A DNA stretch of 9,089 nt from Elusimicrobiota bacterium (GTDB taxonomy: Bacteria; Elusimicrobiota; Elusimicrobia; UBA1565; UBA9628), in NCBI GenBank assembly GCA_016194625.1, contig JACQBB010000464.1, positions 1-9,089 on the forward strand. The letters run 5' to 3'. Positions 1-6,336 of this stretch are shown here, piece by piece. Each line of letters opens with the position of its first letter. Within the stretch, counting starts at the first letter, position 1. A program made the position numbers and the translations under genes. A model generated the notes under the pieces. It was not told where the DNA came from, did not search any database, and saw nothing but the letters and a program-made list of their open reading frames with translations.

Positions 1-357
1 GATGGTCTTGGAGATCGCGAGCGCGAGCTCCTCGGGCTCGACGTGCTTGGTCAGGTAGTCGAACGCGCCCTCCTTCATCGCGGCTACGGCTGTGTCGATG
101 GAGCCGTGGCCGGTGATGACGATCACCCCGGTCTCGGGCTGGCTGGACTTCACCGCGGCGACGACCTGCAGGCCGTCGCCGGAGCCGAGGCGCAGGTCGG
201 TGACGACCGCGTCGAAGATCTCCTTCTCGACGCGGGCCACGCCCGCGTGGGCGGTCTTCTCGGCGTCCACGCGGAAGCCGCGGCGCTTGAGCTCGAGCGC
301 GAGCAGCGCCGCCTGGGAGGCGTCGTCTTCGACGAGCAGGATCCTTTTTTCGTCCAT
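1..357 (-). CDS. Response regulator, NtrC-like receiver domain (C-terminus beyond window)
   Basis: Reading leftwards from the ATG at 357, 119 codons are open to the window edge. The translation is a CheY-like receiver: it opens MDEKRILLVEDD (acidic pocket), carries the phospho-acceptor Asp in VVTDLRLGSGDG, the switch Thr in VIVITGHGS, and the conserved Lys in FDYLTKH. The stretch GSIDTAVAAMKEGAFDYLTK is characteristic of NtrC/AtoC-class receivers, which usually continue into an AAA+ sigma-54 activation domain and a Fis-type helix-turn-helix. That part lies outside the window, so the output domain is inferred, not seen. It is the presumed partner of the upstream kinase. Oddity: the residue after the conserved Lys is His, not the usual Pro. 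An in-frame ATG at 363 overlaps the kinase stop as ATGA, but the AAGGA at 363-367 is correctly spaced only for the ATG at 357. Confidence 0.9.
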   Translation of the reverse strand, partial: MDEKRILLVEDDASQAALLALELKRRGFRVDAEKTAHAGVARVEKEIFDAVVTDLRLGSGDGLQVVAAVKSSQPETGVIVITGHGSIDTAVAAMKEGAFDYLTKHVEPEELALAISKTI

Positions 358-359
358 GG

Positions 360-1451
360 TCATCCTTGGGAGGTGGGCAAGAGAACGGTGAACGAGGCGC
401 CCTTCCCGGGGGCGCTCTCGACTTCGATGCGCCCGCCGTGGGCGCGCGCGATGCGGTCGGCGATCGCCAGGCCCAGGCCGGTGCCGTGCGACTTCGTGGT
501 GCGGAACGGCTCGAACAGGTGCTCGCGCGCCGACGCCGAGATGCCGGGCCCGTCGTCGGAGACGCGCACGAACGCGTGCTTGTCCGCGACGCCGGTGGAG
601 ACGACGATGTGTCCGGCCCCTTCCAGGGCCTGCGCGGCGTTCAGCGCGATGTTCCAGACCACCTGGCGGATCAGGTCGGGGTCGAACGTGAACGGACGCA
701 GGTCGCGGTCGAGCTTGGTCTCGATGCGCACGCCGCCGGAGCCGTCGCCGGCGACGATGCGGATCACGTCCGAGGCCAGCGCGTTGAGGTCGGCGCGCTG
801 CAGCTTCAGCGGGCGCGGGCGCGCGTAGGACAGGAAGTTGGTCAGCGTCTCGTTGAGGCGCGAGCTCTCGTCGCGCAGGATCTTGAGGATGAGCTCGCGG
901 TCCTCGGCGGGGAGGGCGCCGCCGGCGAGCTGGCGCGCGGCCATGACGATCGAGCCCAGCGGGTTGCGGATCTCGTGGGCGACGACGGCGGCCATCTGCC
1001 CGAGCTGGGCGAGAGCCTCGCTCTGCGCGACGCGCTCCTGCAGGCGCCGCAGGTCGCCGACGTCGGTCGCGTTCGAGACGTAGCCCACGATGTCCCCGCG
1101 CTCGTCGCGGACGCTGGTGATGGTCAGCACGACCGGGATCTCGCGGCCGTCCTTGGCCAGGTTCACCAGCTCGCCGCGCCAGAACCCGATCCGGGGGTCC
1201 AGGATGCGGGACCACATCTCCTTGTAGGTCTCCGCGGTGGTGCGCCGCGAGCGCAGGATGCGCGGGTTCTGGCCGATGGCCTCCGCGCGCGACCAGCCGT
1301 AGTGCGCGACGAAGGCGTCGTTGACGTCGCGGATGGTCCCGTCGCGGCCGCAGTAGAACTGCGCGTCGTTCGAGCGCTGGAAGGCCTGGTACAGCGTCAA
1401 GGCCATCTCGTGCTCGTCCTGCGCGGGGGGGCGGGGCTTCGGCGTGGCCAT
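360..1451 (-). CDS. PAS-domain sensor histidine kinase, NtrB-like
   Basis: This is a soluble sensor kinase of 363 residues from the ATG at 1451, with no membrane segment. It should autophosphorylate a His and pass phosphate to the response regulator encoded just downstream. Numbering from the chosen start: a PAS domain spans about 25-130 (FYCGRDGTIRDVNDAF, then AKDGREIPVVLTITSV). The H-box AHEIRNPL has the phospho-acceptor His at about 159. The N-box WNIALNAAQALEG lies near 266-278, the G1 box SDDGPGI near 298-304, and the F/G2 boxes FEPFRTT and GTGLGLAIADRI near 313-334. This order matches the NtrB/AtoS group. The frame extends 16 codons upstream to an ATG at 1499, but that ATG overlaps a possible -10 element and the extra residues look non-conserved. 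At 1451 a GATAAT sits 9 bases upstream, supporting this start. The input signal is unknown; a PAS domain of this sort could sense a small ligand or redox state. Confidence 0.92.
   Translation of the reverse strand: MATPKPRPPAQDEHEMALTLYQAFQRSNDAQFYCGRDGTIRDVNDAFVAHYGWSRAEAIGQNPRILRSRRTTAETYKEMWSRILDPRIGFWRGELVNLAKDGREIPVVLTITSVRDERGDIVGYVSNATDVGDLRRLQERVAQSEALAQLGQMAAVVAHEIRNPLGSIVMAARQLAGGALPAEDRELILKILRDESSRLNETLTNFLSYARPRPLKLQRADLNALASDVIRIVAGDGSGGVRIETKLDRDLRPFTFDPDLIRQVVWNIALNAAQALEGAGHIVVSTGVADKHAFVRVSDDGPGISASAREHLFEPFRTTKSHGTGLGLAIADRIARAHGGRIEVESAPGKGASFTVLLPTSQG
363..367 (-). promoter_or_regulatory. Shine-Dalgarno site of the response regulator
   Basis: AAGGA on the minus strand ends 5 bases before the ATG at 357 and abuts the alternative ATG at 363. 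It favours the inner start and implies translation coupled to the end of the kinase gene, whose stop codon lies at 360-362. Confidence 0.55.
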
Positions 1452-1460
1452 TATGTTGCT
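1445..1460 (+). promoter_or_regulatory. Candidate sigma-54 (-24/-12) promoter of the sigma-54-like gene
   Basis: The sequence TGGCCATTATGTTGCT matches the sigma-54 consensus TGGCACG-N4-TTGCW at TGGC and TTGCT with exact spacing; the ACG positions deviate. It reads rightwards towards the sigma-54-like gene, with a predicted transcription start near 1471 and a leader of about 60 bases. It overlaps the first codons of the divergent kinase and directly abuts that gene's GATAAT. Based on consensus matching by eye only. Confidence 0.5.
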
Positions 1461-1530: not shown

Positions 1531-2604
1531 ATGAAACAACACCTCGGCCTGCGCGTGGAGCAACGTCTGGCGATCCTCGGCCGCCTGCGCATGGCGGATT
1601 GGATCGAGATGCCTGAGCGCGAGTTCGCCCGCGAGGTGGAGCGCGTCGAGAAGGACCCGCTCTTCAAGAAGCTCTATTTCGGCGCCCCGGGACTGCCGTC
1701 CGCGATCCGCCGCCGCCGCTGGCCCGGCGGCAAGATCTCCGGCAGCTTCTACGACGTCGACGAGTCCCGCGTCGCCGCCGGCGAGCGCGTGGACGTCGAG
1801 GGCCGGCTGGACGCGCGCAAGGACGTGACCGCCCTCATCCGCAAGATGGGCCGGCCGGCTTTCGAGCGCTACTTCCTGCAGGCCGAGGAGGCCGCGACCC
1901 TTCCCGAGATCGCCAAGCGCACCGGGCTGACCGAGGACGAGGTCGGACGCGTCCACGAGCTGCTGCTCGAGATCGGCGCCCAGGCGGAGTTCGCGGGCGC
2001 CCCCAAGACCGCGGCCGCGGCGCGCGGCTCGACCTGCCTGGCCCGCCTGACGCTGGACGGCGGCAAGCCCGGCTTCGAGTTCCTGGCGCCGTACTGGGCC
2101 CGCGGCCTGTACCAGGTCCGCTACGACGACCTGGAGTCGTGGAAGCACTCGGGCACGCTCGACGGCGAGGAGCGCCGGCGGCTGCGCCACCTGCTCAAGC
2201 GGCTGGAGACGCTGAACCTGCGCCAGAGCACGATCTTCCGCATCTTGGAGGCGCTCGGCGTCATCCAGTCCGACTACCTGCGCTCGCGCCGCCCCGAGGA
2301 CGTCCGCCCGGTCAGCCTGCGCCTGCTCGCCCGGCGCCTGCAGCTGGCGCCGAGCACCGTCAGCCGCGCTCTCGCGCACCGCACCGTGCGCCTGCCGTGG
2401 GGCGTCGAGGTCCCGATGATCGCCCTCGTCCCGGGCCAGCGCCACGTCCTGAAGGACATCCTGGGCTTGTGGATCGCGTCCGATCCCAAGCAGACCGACG
2501 CCGCTCTCGCCGGACGCCTGAAGAAGGAGCGCGGCATCTCCGTCTCGCGCCGCACCGTGAACGCGGTGCGGCACGTGCTCGGCCAGGAGGGGGCGCCGTC
2601 CTGA
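1531..2604 (+). CDS. Divergent, short sigma-54 (RpoN)-like factor
   Basis: The 357-residue protein is about 100 residues shorter than typical RpoN (around 470). Residues 1-48 resemble region I: MKQHLGLRVEQRL at the start, and EFAREVERVEKDPLFKKL against the family's ELQQEIQQALESNPLLEEL. Residues 110-150 (FERYFLQAEEAATLPEIAKRTG...) resemble the second half of the core-binding domain; the first half seems reduced to the linker at 50-105. Residues 193-250 (LYQVRYDDLE..., LNLRQSTIFRILEAL) match the stretch before the DNA-binding domain. Residues 262-291 (LRLLARRLQLAPSTVSRAL) match the sigma-54 helix-turn-helix ESTISRV segment. SRRTVNAVRH at 339-348 matches the RpoN box ARRTVAKYRE, keeping RRTV. 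It should bind core RNA polymerase and -24/-12 promoters, needing an AAA+ activator. The frame extends further upstream, but into the divergent kinase, and homology starts at MKQ. No Shine-Dalgarno sequence precedes the ATG. It is followed 8 bases later by the CBS gene. The assignment rests on remembered family motifs. Confidence 0.8.
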   Translation: MKQHLGLRVEQRLAILGRLRMADWIEMPEREFAREVERVEKDPLFKKLYFGAPGLPSAIRRRRWPGGKISGSFYDVDESRVAAGERVDVEGRLDARKDVTALIRKMGRPAFERYFLQAEEAATLPEIAKRTGLTEDEVGRVHELLLEIGAQAEFAGAPKTAAAARGSTCLARLTLDGGKPGFEFLAPYWARGLYQVRYDDLESWKHSGTLDGEERRRLRHLLKRLETLNLRQSTIFRILEALGVIQSDYLRSRRPEDVRPVSLRLLARRLQLAPSTVSRALAHRTVRLPWGVEVPMIALVPGQRHVLKDILGLWIASDPKQTDAALAGRLKKERGISVSRRTVNAVRHVLGQEGAPS

Positions 2605-2612
2605 GCGAGCCC

Positions 2613-3041
2613 ATGTTCAAGAGGCTGCCGACGGCCCGCGATCTGATGCGCCCCGTCGCGTTCGTCCTCCGCGAGTCCGACGACGCGTGGACGGCGTCCC
2701 GCCGCCTGTTCGAGAGCGGCCAGACCGGCGTGCCGGTGCTGAACGCGGAGGAGAAGCTGGTCGGCGTCATCTCGCAGGCCGACCTGGCCGCGTACCTGCG
2801 CGAGAGCTCCCGCGCCGCGCAGGACTTCTACGCCGAGCCCGACCGCGACCCGATCCCCGCGCGGCCCTCGGCCACCGTCGGCCAGCTGATGTCGCGCGTC
2901 ATCATCCAGGTCCCCGAGGAGATGACGCTCGACGAGATCGAGCGCCACATGCTGCGCCGCCGCGTGCAGCGCGTCCTGGTCGCGCGCGAGGACGGCGTCC
3001 TCGGCGTGATCACCGCCATCGACCTCTTGCGCGCCCGCTAG
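2613..3041 (+). CDS. Stand-alone CBS-pair protein
   Basis: A 142-residue protein made almost entirely of two CBS motifs. CBS1 covers about residues 7-62 (ARDLMRPVAFVLRESD, then GVPVLNAEEKLVGVISQADL) and CBS2 about 88-140 (VGQLMSRVIIQVPEEMTLDEIERHM, then RVLVAREDGVLGVITAIDLL). A Bateman pair like this typically binds adenosine-containing ligands (AMP, ATP, SAM, NAD) or Mg-ATP and acts as an energy or ligand sensor. There is no catalytic or DNA-binding domain, so the target is unknown. It lies 8 bases after the sigma-54-like gene and 17 bases before the P-type ATPase, so co-transcription is likely and regulation of either neighbour is conceivable. The start is uncertain: the ATG at 2613 has only a weak upstream purine run, while the strong AGGAGGGGG at 2585-2593 would suit a CTG at 2601 that overlaps the preceding stop. 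Confidence 0.85.
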   Translation: MFKRLPTARDLMRPVAFVLRESDDAWTASRRLFESGQTGVPVLNAEEKLVGVISQADLAAYLRESSRAAQDFYAEPDRDPIPARPSATVGQLMSRVIIQVPEEMTLDEIERHMLRRRVQRVLVAREDGVLGVITAIDLLRAR

Positions 3042-3058: not shown

Positions 3059-5668
3059 GTGGAGCCGCCGCGCCCGACGTGGCACCGGACGACCCCCGAG
3101 GAGGCGCTGGCCGCCCTGGGGACCTCCCGCGCCGGCCTGTCCGACGACGAGGCCGCCCGCCGCCTCGCCCTGAACGGGCCGAACCGCGTCGAGGAGGTCC
3201 GCGCGCGCGGCTCCTTGGCGATCCTCCTCGGCCAGTTCGCCGACGTCCTCGTGCTGATCCTGCTGGCCGCCGCGGCGCTGTCCGCGGCCATCGGCGACCC
3301 CGGCGACGCCGCCGCGATCGCCGCGATCCTGACGCTGAACGCGGCGATCGGCTTCGCGCAGGAGCGCCGCGCGGAGAACGCGATCCTCGCGCTCCGGGCG
3401 ATGTCGGCGCCGACGGCCTCCGTCCTGCGCGGCGGAGCGCCGCGGACCGTGCCCGCGGCGGAGCTGGTCGTCGGCGACCTGGTCGCGCTGGACGCGGGGG
3501 CGATCGTCCCCGCCGACCTGCGCCTGCTCGAGACCTCGCGTCTGAGCGTGGACGAGTCCGCGCTCACCGGCGAGTCGGTCGCCGTCGAGAAGTCCGCGGC
3601 GGCCGAGGCTCCGGAGGACGCGCCGCTCGGCGACCGGGCGAACATGGCCTACGCGGGGACGGTCGTCGCGTCGGGGCGGGGCGCGGGGGCGGTCGCCGCG
3701 GTCGGGATGGACACCGAGCTGGGGCGCGTCGCGCGCCTGCTCGAGCGCACCGAGCGCGTGGCCACGCCGCTGCAGAAGAAGCTGGCCGACTTCGGCCGCC
3801 GCCTGGCCGTCGTCGCGCTGAGCGTGTGCGCGGCCGTGTTCGCCGCGGGCCTGCTGCGCGGCGAGCCGCCGCTGGCGGTCCTGCTGACCGCGGTGAGCCT
3901 GGCCGTCGCCGCGGTCCCCGAGGCTCTGCCCGCGGTCGTGACGATCGCGCTGGCGTTGGGCGCGCTCAAGATGGCGCGGCGCCGGGCGCTGGTGCGCCGT
4001 CTGCCCGCCGTCGAGGCGCTGGGCGCGGTCACCTGCATCTGCTCCGACAAGACCGGGACGCTGACCCAGAACCGGATGCGCGCGGAGGCCCTGTCGTGCG
4101 CGGGGGAGACGGCGGCGCGGCCGGGCGCGGGCCCGGCGTGGGCGCGCCTCGTCGAGGCGCTGGCGCTGTGCGGAGACGCGCGCGCCGACGCGGAGGGGCG
4201 CCTCGTCGGCGACCCGACCGAGACGGCGCTGCTCGCCGCGGCGGCGTCGGCCGGCGCCGACCCGGCGGGGCTCGCCGCGCGCCTGCCGCGCGTCGCCGAG
4301 GTCCCGTTCGACGCCGGGCGGCGGCGGATGACGACCGTCCACCGCGCCGCGGACGGGCGCGGCGCGTCGTTCACGAAGGGCGCCGTCGAGGGCGTGCTGG
4401 CGTGCTGCGTCGACGCGCTGACCCCCGACGGCTCGGGCCCCCTCGACCGCGCCGCGGTCCTGCGCGAGGCCGAGCGCCTGTCCGCCGACGGCCTGCGCGT
4501 GCTCGCCTTCGCGTCCCGCGATTGGCCGGCGCCGCCGGCGGCGGAGGACGCCGAGGCGGGGCTGACCTTCGTGGGGCTGGCGGGCCTGCTCGACCCGCCG
4601 CGGCCGCGGGCGCGCGAGGCCGTGGCGACCTGCCGCGCGGCGGGCATCCGCACGGTGATGATCACCGGGGACCACCCGCTGACCGCGGCCGCGATCGCGC
4701 GCCGGCTGGGCATCCTGGAGGACGGCGGCGGGACGCTGACCGGGCCGGAGCTGGAGGCGCTGTCGCTGGCCGAGCTGCGCGCGCGGGCGCGCGGAGTCAG
4801 CGTGTACGCGCGCGTCGCGCCGGAGCAGAAGCTCAAGATCGTCACCGCGCTCCAGGAGGACGGCGAGATCGTCGCGATGACCGGCGACGGCGTCAACGAC
4901 GCTCCCGCGCTGCGCCGCGCCGACATCGGCGTCGCGATGGGGCTGACCGGGACCGACGCGGCCAAGCAGGCGGCCGCGATGGTCCTGCTCGACGACGACT
5001 TCGCGACGATCGTCGGCGCGGTGCGCGAGGGGCGCCGCCTCTACGACAACATCCGGAGGTTCGTGAAGTACCAGCTCACGACGAACTCCGCCGAGGTCCT
5101 GGTCGTCGCCCTGGCGCCGCTGTTCGGCCTGCCGATCCCGCTGCTGCCGGTCCAGATCCTGTGGATCAACCTGCTGACCGACGGCCTGCCGGGCCTGGCG
5201 CTGGCCGCCGAGCCCGAGGAGGCCGGCGCGATGACGCGCGGCCCCCGGCCGCCCGACGAGAGCGTGCTCGCGCGCGGGCTCGGCCTCCACGCGGTCTGGG
5301 TCGGCCTGCTGATGACGGCGCTGGTGCTGGGCGTGCAGTGGGCGCTCGTCGGCGCGGGCAGCCCGCACTGGCGCACGCTGGTGTTCACCGTCGTCGCGCT
5401 CTCTCAGCTGGGCCACGTGCTGGCGATCCGCTCGGAGACCGAGTCGCTGTTCGCGCAGGGGCTCCTCTCGAACAAGCCTCTGCTGGCGGCCGTCGCGGCG
5501 ACCGCTCTCCTGCAGGCGGCCGCGGTGTACGCCCCGCCGCTGCGCGCGCTGCTCAAGACGACGCCGCTGACCGCGGCGGAGGCCGGATGGGCGCTCGCGG
5601 CGTCGACGCTCGTGTTCTGGGCGGTCGAGGTCGAGAAGTGGCTGAAGCGCCGGGCGGGGGCGCGGTGA
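3059..5668 (+). CDS. P2A-type cation (Ca2+-like) transporting P-type ATPase
   Basis: An 869-residue integral membrane pump, the usual length for bacterial P2A ATPases, from a GTG start. It should couple ATP hydrolysis to cation export across the inner membrane. In order: cation-ATPase N domain (WHRTTPEEALAAL, residues 8-45), M1-M2 (about 52-100), actuator TGES (170-173), M3-M4 with PEALP (287-291), the phosphorylated Asp330 in DKTGTLTQ, nucleotide-domain KGA (440-442), MITGDH (534-539), hinge TGDGVNDAP (608-616), and a six-helix C-terminal domain. Calcium-site residues known from SERCA are mostly present: Glu288 in PEALP, Asn676 and Glu679 in TNSAEV (M5), and Asn704 and Asp708 in WINLLTDGLP (M6). 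The M8 position equivalent to SERCA Glu908 aligns with Gln783, as in plasma-membrane-type pumps. No heavy-metal-binding domain or CPC motif is present, which argues against P1B. Ca2+ is the best guess; Mn2+ or another cation cannot be excluded. It closes the sigma-54-like/CBS cluster. Confidence 0.95.
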   Translation: MEPPRPTWHRTTPEEALAALGTSRAGLSDDEAARRLALNGPNRVEEVRARGSLAILLGQFADVLVLILLAAAALSAAIGDPGDAAAIAAILTLNAAIGFAQERRAENAILALRAMSAPTASVLRGGAPRTVPAAELVVGDLVALDAGAIVPADLRLLETSRLSVDESALTGESVAVEKSAAAEAPEDAPLGDRANMAYAGTVVASGRGAGAVAAVGMDTELGRVARLLERTERVATPLQKKLADFGRRLAVVALSVCAAVFAAGLLRGEPPLAVLLTAVSLAVAAVPEALPAVVTIALALGALKMARRRALVRRLPAVEALGAVTCICSDKTGTLTQNRMRAEALSCAGETAARPGAGPAWARLVEALALCGDARADAEGRLVGDPTETALLAAAASAGADPAGLAARLPRVAEVPFDAGRRRMTTVHRAADGRGASFTKGAVEGVLACCVDALTPDGSGPLDRAAVLREAERLSADGLRVLAFASRDWPAPPAAEDAEAGLTFVGLAGLLDPPRPRAREAVATCRAAGIRTVMITGDHPLTAAAIARRLGILEDGGGTLTGPELEALSLAELRARARGVSVYARVAPEQKLKIVTALQEDGEIVAMTGDGVNDAPALRRADIGVAMGLTGTDAAKQAAAMVLLDDDFATIVGAVREGRRLYDNIRRFVKYQLTTNSAEVLVVALAPLFGLPIPLLPVQILWINLLTDGLPGLALAAEPEEAGAMTRGPRPPDESVLARGLGLHAVWVGLLMTALVLGVQWALVGAGSPHWRTLVFTVVALSQLGHVLAIRSETESLFAQGLLSNKPLLAAVAATALLQAAAVYAPPLRALLKTTPLTAAEAGWALAASTLVFWAVEVEKWLKRRAGAR

Positions 5669-5679: not shown

Positions 5680-6336
5680 TCAGGCTCCGAACAGGTCGCC
5701 TTGGGCCGGGGCGGACGCGTCCAGCAGGGACGGCTCGTCGAGCTCGGTCTTTCCGACGCGCTCGGAGACGCGGCGCGCCTCCAGCGGCTCGGACGGGTAG
5801 GGCAGGCACAGCTCCTTCAGGCGGTCGGGGCGCGTCTGCGGGTCCAGCCAGGCGGCCTCGCCGTCGGGCGGCAGGACCAGGGGCATGCGGTCGTGGACGC
5901 GGGCGACCAGCGGGTTCGGAGCCGTGGTGACGATCGCGAAGCCGCCGGGCTCCCAGAGCGCGGCGAACGCGAAGGCGGCGCCGGTCTTCAGGCGGAACAG
6001 GCGCGGGGACTTGTCGGCGCCCTTCTTCGGCCACTCGTACCAGCCGTCCGCCGGGACCAGCGCGCGGCGCCAGCGGAACGCGTCGCGGAAGAACGGCTTG
6101 TCGGCCAGCGACTCGGCGCGGGCGACGATCTGGGGCTTGGCCGCCGGGCCCTTCGCCCAGGACGGGAGCAGGCCCCAGCGCAGGAGCGTCAGGCGCCGCT
6201 CGGGCGCGGCGAGGACGACCGCCGCGGGCTGAGAGGGCGCGATGTTGTAGCGGGGGGAGAATCCCGGCGGCGGCGCGGCGCCGAAGCGCTCGGCCAGGAC
6301 CTTGGCCGACATCGTCGCCGTGTAGCGGGAGCACAT
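5680..6336 (-). CDS. SRAP (YedK/HMCES-type) abasic-site DNA-protein crosslink protein
   Basis: A 218-residue protein starting MCSRYTAT. In this family the initiator Met is removed and Cys2 forms a thiazolidine crosslink to abasic sites in single-stranded DNA, shielding them during replication. Visible features: Cys2; RYNIAPSQ (29-36); LLRWGLLPSWAK (51-62); ARAES (73-76 region); ALVPADGWYEW with the conserved Glu101; and ARVHDRMPLVL with the conserved His148. The length fits the family. Oddity: the family's conserved Asn in the (I)NARxET motif, Asn75 in E. coli YedK, is Val71 here (IVARAES). The frame stays open upstream to 6627, but that stretch is antisense to malQ and lacks homology, and MCSRY must be the N-terminus because catalysis needs Cys2. 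The gene converges on the ATPase gene with only 11 bases between the stops and diverges from malQ. No LexA-like operator was seen. Confidence 0.93.
   Translation of the reverse strand: MCSRYTATMSAKVLAERFGAAPPPGFSPRYNIAPSQPAAVVLAAPERRLTLLRWGLLPSWAKGPAAKPQIVARAESLADKPFFRDAFRWRRALVPADGWYEWPKKGADKSPRLFRLKTGAAFAFAALWEPGGFAIVTTAPNPLVARVHDRMPLVLPPDGEAAWLDPQTRPDRLKELCLPYPSEPLEARRVSERVGKTELDEPSLLDASAPAQGDLFGA

Follow-up and report, generated by a model that had tools for sequence, protein, structure and literature searches.

A shortened sigma-54-type protein probably used in place of canonical RpoN by many Elusimicrobiota

The RpoN1 and RpoN2 paralogues of Xanthomonas and others are full-length RpoN proteins. 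In this study, we analyzed a 357-residue protein encoded in a 9,089-nucleotide stretch of DNA from an Elusimicrobiota bacterium (contig JACQBB010000464.1; the whole stretch is hereafter the window), which very probably is a working, activator-dependent sigma-54-type sigma factor used by many uncultured Elusimicrobiota instead of canonical RpoN. With the latter (TIGR02395; the Pfam activator-interacting (AID), core-binding (CBD), and DNA-binding (DBD) domains; E. coli rpoN), it shares the order of its parts, a region-I-like start, the long helix, the helix-turn-helix, the RpoN box, residues matching R336, R383, R455, and R456, linkage to AAA+ activators, and -24/-12 sites at the canonical spacing. 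It differs in its length (357 vs 477 residues), in matching neither the CBD nor the AID profile, in its proline at the place of E378 and its replaced ELKYFF segment and, in the window clade, in the V at the place of Y461. Each of the 24 family-carrying genomes, moreover, has one to five copies, most of them beside activators. The presence of more than one sigma-54 per genome is shared with the RpoN1/RpoN2 paralogues (PMC12316311, PMC7280030); unlike these, the short family was without a core-binding domain match in 24/24 genomes. A shortened sigma-54 has likewise been described as the truncated RpoN of Neisseria (PMC12316311), in contrast to which the short factor keeps its DNA-binding domain, activators, and promoter sites. 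The string 'Elusimicrob' was absent from the main text of this 2025 sigma-54 regulon survey, and no description of the shortened family was recognized among the papers listed in searches of PMC.

Homology, Predicted Fold, and Stability of the Shortened Protein

Pfam Sigma54_DBD (PF04552) was matched by residues 226–351 of the protein (E = 2e-13; 50.8 bits vs a cut-off of 22.8) and, at E ≤ 0.01, by 67/67 members of the family (set A1), and the single match under 0.001 in a phmmer search of the PDB was RpoN (5ui5_I, E = 1.4e-4). Sigma54_CBD, matched by all 11 canonical RpoN compared, was absent from the 25 commonest Pfam families of the 67 members, and the score for the RpoN equivalog TIGR02395 (NCBIfam) was 59.2 bits, under its cut-off of 277.35. 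Because neither the CBD profile nor the equivalog recognized it, the protein was not classed as RpoN. These results, together with the predicted fold described below, supported its identification as a divergent, shortened sigma-54 scored poorly by RpoN profiles, as had been proposed in a reading of the window made without database searches (the sequence-only reading); the length, the helix-turn-helix, and the position of the SRRTVNAVRH box given there were all confirmed. On the present evidence, the protein would behave as a sigma-54, and it is most aptly described as a variant form of sigma-54.

The fold and the order of the parts in the predicted structure matched those of solved sigma-54: in a template-free model, residues 10–353 aligned with chain residues 12–468, those from about 160 onward corresponding to RpoN from about 269. 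With the RpoN domain limits taken from PMC5505868, approximately 100 residues were absent between region I and the long helix, as had been foreseen. The region-I-like start noticed earlier was also supported, by the model and by the co-linearity of residues 1–46 with RpoN 1–48 (hhalign p = 2.2e-3, 8e-4, or 1.4e-4, depending on the target set), the alignment beginning at residue 1–2 with modest likeness. Arginine was found at the positions aligned to RpoN R336, R383, R455, and R456 in 65, 67, 59, and 64 of the 67 members, respectively, R231 of the window protein corresponding to R336. When R336 of RpoN is altered, the need for the activator on pre-formed bubbles can be removed (PMC5505868). The box kept RRTV and the later R, and the place of Y461 was occupied by V in 27/31 members of the window clade and by Y in 32 of the 36 others.

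A sigma-70 region 4 profile (PF04545) matched the rebuilt core-binding stretch alone in 3/40 of a paralogue-rich set at E ≤ 0.01, the window protein not being among these. Since canonical RpoN also weakly matched this profile (somewhere in 7/11 proteins at E ≤ 1), this likeness was taken as a lead only, and it may be a generic helix-turn-helix likeness. In the homologues P0048, P0069, P0113, P0041, and P0057, residues about 111–164 narrowly exceeded the Pfam cut-off for sigma-70 region 4.

A protein search yielded 212 homologues, the best 120 of which were listed. Every listed match with an organism name came from Elusimicrobia or Elusimicrobiota, and no short homologue from outside Elusimicrobiota was seen among these named matches, most matches bearing no name and the search not extending to the genomes of other phyla. 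The NCBI names among the listed homologues were 'hypothetical protein'; JGI labels a few distant members (P0152, P0167, and P0168) 'sigma54-like protein' or 'Sigma-54, DNA binding domain', and the sigma-54 likeness had therefore already been picked up by automatic annotation. In GTDB genomes, 25 orthologue loci were found in 24 genomes, with record titles naming Elusimicrobia or Elusimicrobiota in 22 cases and only 'bacterium' in three, and nearly all of them derived from metagenome-assembled genomes (MAGs).

Window-type copies were 96–55% identical to the window protein, and distant paralogues (23–33% identical) aligned across nearly the full length. A search seeded with one such paralogue returned 67 proteins without a canonical core-binding domain and nine with it, the latter at 8e-7 to 3.5e-4. 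In a tree of the C-terminal part, a branch (100/99) set the 11 canonical RpoN apart, the window-type proteins formed one clade (100/98), and a 16-row paralogue clade was supported (100/99), the deeper forks being weak. The family length was 339–397 residues (median 358; n = 67, with start codons chosen by us). The reading frame was open in 23/25 orthologue loci, which spoke against the degraded copy that the sequence-only reading had named as an alternative; the exceptions were L002, which meets a contig end, and L021. The latter (9935–11063) lies in CP096137.1, the sole chromosome with 'complete' in its title, and its window-type orthologue is divided over two frames near the N-terminus, through either a sequencing error or a real change.

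Sigma-54 Components across Elusimicrobiota Genomes

The DNA-binding domain and the activator AAA+ domain were each found in 24/24 genomes carrying the family, and the CBD profile search found the canonical core-binding domain in 0/24. Among 294 Elusimicrobiota genomes, the DNA-binding domain occurred in 115 (113 over cut-off), activators at E ≤ 1e-30 in 115, and the canonical core-binding domain in two (one over cut-off). Since the activator profile at its default threshold matched all 14 control genomes, only strong matches were counted; at E ≤ 1e-30, the only controls matched were the four with RpoN, and the best match in each of the 24 family genomes was 4.7e-53 or better. The CBD profile found four of the 14 controls, namely E. 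coli, B. subtilis, Caulobacter, and Bacteroides. The DNA-binding domain and activator were present together in 111 genomes, and each was present alone in four (Fisher p = 2e-70, ignoring relatedness). Because the DNA-binding domain and activators were present and the canonical core-binding domain was in none, the short protein was the sole sigma-54 candidate found in the 24 genomes, and we infer from these relatives that the genome of the window itself has no rpoN. A canonical RpoN alongside the short factor was rejected on the CBD counts (over cut-off in 0/24 and 1/294 genomes), and the specialised second sigma-54 and the competitor of a standard RpoN envisaged by the sequence-only reading found no support.

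Among the four genomes with the DNA-binding domain only, G094 has a clear full-length RpoN, and G033 and G242 gave weak matches (8.6e-4). The protein of G094 (G094:C115; L073, L103) is a canonical RpoN of 465 residues in a genome without an activator at E ≤ 1e-30, and may reflect a binning error or a rare gene. A 2011 survey lists Elusimicrobium minutum as without sigma-54 and activators (PMC3162934), which agrees with the Elusimicrobiota genomes having neither domain.

Promoter Sites, Activators, and Neighbouring Genes

The 200 bp before the family gene were scanned in the window and 24 loci (L002, which begins inside the gene, was excluded; L008 offered 158 bp). TGGC-N7-TTGCW occurred exactly in 17/25 of these regions and with at most one mismatch in 22/25. 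Spacers of 2–6 and 8–12 gave no exact site and 0–1 with at most one mismatch, and 200 shuffles gave means of 0.05 and 0.67, respectively. Judged by sequence only, these were -24/-12 sites at the canonical spacing, and a strong form of the altered promoter preference suspected earlier was not borne out, although the fifth base was C (TGGCC) in 13 of the 17 exact sites, as compared with A in the usual consensus (TGGCAC-N5-TTGCT; PMC12316311).

When 46 loci (709 kb, own gene calls) were scanned with a weight matrix, 26 sites of at least 12 bits were found upstream of genes at the canonical spacing vs 0–7 at eight other spacings, and exact upstream sites numbered 30 vs 0–3 at ten others, 16 of the 30 preceding a sigma-54 gene and 14 other genes. 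Including sites with C for the first T, the targets by Pfam name included hemA (glutamyl-tRNA reductase), c-type cytochromes, YceI, universal stress protein, receiver-only regulators, radical-SAM proteins, phosphoketolase, an acetyl-CoA hydrolase-like protein, and two-component or HD-domain proteins; in one Pfam check, two of ten target proteins had no match. We read these sites as marking a putative small regulon, and the heme, cytochrome, and stress targets suggest respiration or redox control. A strict pattern, TGGCACG-N4-TTGCW, gave eight sites in five of the 24 genomes vs three sites in two genomes for a spacing one base longer; this result was not relied on, as its reversed-pattern control gave one site for the first spacing and many more for the longer.

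A strong activator lay within 4 kb of 35/43 family genes in the 24 genomes; of the remainder, one had an activator at 4.5 kb and seven lay near contig ends. Activator domains selected by whole-domain score comprised 58 distinct sequences, some being cut copies of others; 10 stopped before the contact loop and 48 reached it. The loop was a full GAFTGA or GSFTGA in 42 of the 48, AFTGA at a locus edge in one, and GAFTDA or GSFTDA in three (L078, L081, and L089). The remaining two, L131 (GAFYGA) and L132 (GTFAAA), both come from regions chosen around activators without a family neighbour and, given their changed loops, may not work through sigma-54. The activators of the window-clade relatives L001, L003, and L004 finish with a basic tail, nothing past the AAA+ lid being found in a Pfam scan of L004; eight other activators displayed have a Fis-like tail by eye. 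As the former three seem to be without a C-terminal DNA-binding domain, they may act without an upstream enhancer.

The features of the locus are summarized in Table 1. The divergent PAS kinase adjoins the orthologue in 20/22 loci with sufficient upstream sequence, and a response regulator comes after it. In the relative L004, the gene equivalent to the regulator cut by the window edge encodes a receiver, a Sigma54_activat AAA+ domain, and a lid, and in further relatives open reading frames with AAA+ motifs overlap the regulator position. The CBS gene directly follows the sigma-54 gene in 9/25 orthologue loci, namely those at least 71% identical in sigma-54 with the exception of L021, and the P-type cation ATPase was found in 0/25 as far as their sequence extends.

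Table 1. Features of the window and parts of the shortened sigma-54 protein
Feature	Position	Strand	Remark
Shortened sigma-54 gene, 357 residues	1531..2604	+	Open reading frame translation, Pfam, alignments, predicted structure
Region-I-like part	residues 1–50
Remodelled core-binding stretch	residues about 84–157
Beta hairpin	residues 168–184
Long helix	residues 212–245
Helix-turn-helix	residues 263–281
RpoN box SRRTVNAVRH	residues 339–348
-24/-12 site TGGCCATTATGTTGCT	1445..1460	+	70 bp 5' of the sigma-54 ATG, pointing to it; overlaps the divergent kinase start codon
PAS histidine kinase (PAS, HisKA, HATPase_c), divergent neighbour	360..1451	-
Response regulator receiver domain, gene cut by window edge	1..357	-
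CBS-domain protein directly downstream of sigma-54	2613..3041	+	8 bp gap
P-type cation ATPase after CBS gene	3059–5668	+	17 bp gap

Proposed Mode of Action and Its Alternatives

In the proposed mechanism, region I would both maintain the closed state of the holoenzyme and take up the GAFTGA loop of the AAA+ activator. Recognition of the -12 and -24 elements would fall to the helix-turn-helix and RpoN box, and attachment to RNA polymerase to the shortened, rebuilt core-binding stretch. The PAS kinase would phosphorylate the receiver-AAA+ activator, which would then open RNA polymerase/short-factor complexes at -24/-12 promoters, the factor's own foremost, such that activator and short factor together would amplify the factor itself and turn on a small regulon. 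Self-amplification is proposed because the gene is preceded by a -24/-12 site and is divergent from the PAS kinase and receiver-AAA+ activator.

Several observations weigh against this assignment. Neither Sigma54_CBD (PF04963) nor Sigma54_AID (PF00309) was matched by the protein at E ≤ 1 in Pfam, and residues 84–211, folded alone, had no confident match among solved structures in the PDB; for these reasons, RNA polymerase binding is something we infer. Accordingly, the retention of the second half of the core-binding domain, claimed by the sequence-only reading, held for the alignment from about residue 160 but not for this separately folded part. Region I, modest in similarity, also matched a canonical CBD helix (p = 4.6e-4), and 61/67 members have proline at the helix-turn-helix place of E378, which is described as highly conserved (PMC5505868). 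The 25 orthologue loci are related rather than independent, L014 and L017 sharing one genome, and a search of 4 kb around each of the 53 strong activators in the 24 genomes found no family gene for 18 of them. As to the promoters, a good site ahead of the family gene is missing at three of the 25 loci (L020, L022, and L023), and since the window site overlaps the kinase ATG, coding constraint may explain its GGCCAT half, though not TTGCT at a fixed spacing. In 2.0 of the 3.8 Mb of G020, no clear excess was seen upstream of genes (3 exact sites vs 0–2 for other spacers); over all positions there, the canonical spacer gave 33 exact matches vs 3–19, nearly all intragenic, and the few upstream sites precede, by eye, hemA, universal stress protein, YceI, and an HD-domain gene.

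The lost core-binding profile and the structurally unmatched stretch would also suit a sigma-54-derived DNA-binding antagonist that occupies -24/-12 sites and no longer recruits RNA polymerase. We regard this as very unlikely, as no canonical sigma-54 to antagonize was found in any of the 24 genomes, activators with intact contact loops are retained, and a region-I-like start is seen in both profile and model. Even less credence is given to a canonical RpoN overlooked in incomplete genomes and served by these sites and activators: nearly all loci come from MAGs, and G094 shows that one of the 294 genomes has a clear canonical RpoN, but CBD counts of 0/24 and 1/294 over cut-off are hard to ascribe to incompleteness where strong activators occur in 115/294, the profile does detect RpoN in controls, and in the complete chromosome G020 (CP096137.1), two short copies occur without any match to the CBD. 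That the gene is a decaying rpoN remnant, for which its shortness relative to RpoN and the split orthologue of L021 might speak, is the least probable of all; such a copy was rejected in view of the stable length and intact orthologues, and the identity of window-type copies to the window protein and the preserved promoter, synteny, and key residues argue in the same direction. The activator-dependent sigma factor remains the preferred explanation.

A more tentative proposal, doubtful at present, extends this sigma factor reading to the whole phylum. Canonical sigma-54 may have been replaced in Elusimicrobiota by a new architecture, in which region I is followed by a single rebuilt, helix-turn-helix-like module for core binding, with a grip on RNA polymerase possibly like that of sigma-70 region 4, and then by the long helix, helix-turn-helix, and RpoN box. 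This architecture may since have given rise to multiple dedicated pairs of sigma-54 and activator, every pair having a -24/-12 variant of its own. Sites of the form YGGCAY..AAATTGCTC numbered 13 in 6/24 genomes vs one for a spacing one base longer. Five of these six genomes were among the 12 with a non-window-type copy, and no such copy was found in the sixth, G005; the other seven of the 12 have no exact site of this form, which leaves the pairing of paralogue and variant a candidate. In L113 (G010:C100), a paralogous sigma-54/activator pair is flanked by identical TGGCACGGAAATTGCTC sites, one at 5950 and the other at 16179; sites of this type were also noted in G010:C2 and C27.

Counts of sigma-54 based on the CBD would miss the short factor in all 24 genomes, each of which has strong sigma-54 activators. 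If the proposed function is true, about 100 residues of a supposedly fixed architecture would be dispensable or rebuildable while activator linkage and promoter sites persist, and the family would constitute a natural experiment on the sigma-54 parts required for core binding, silencing, and activation, and possibly a set of parallel sigma-54/activator pairs. Should the reading of dedicated pairs also be true, one bacterium would carry several private sigma-54 channels.
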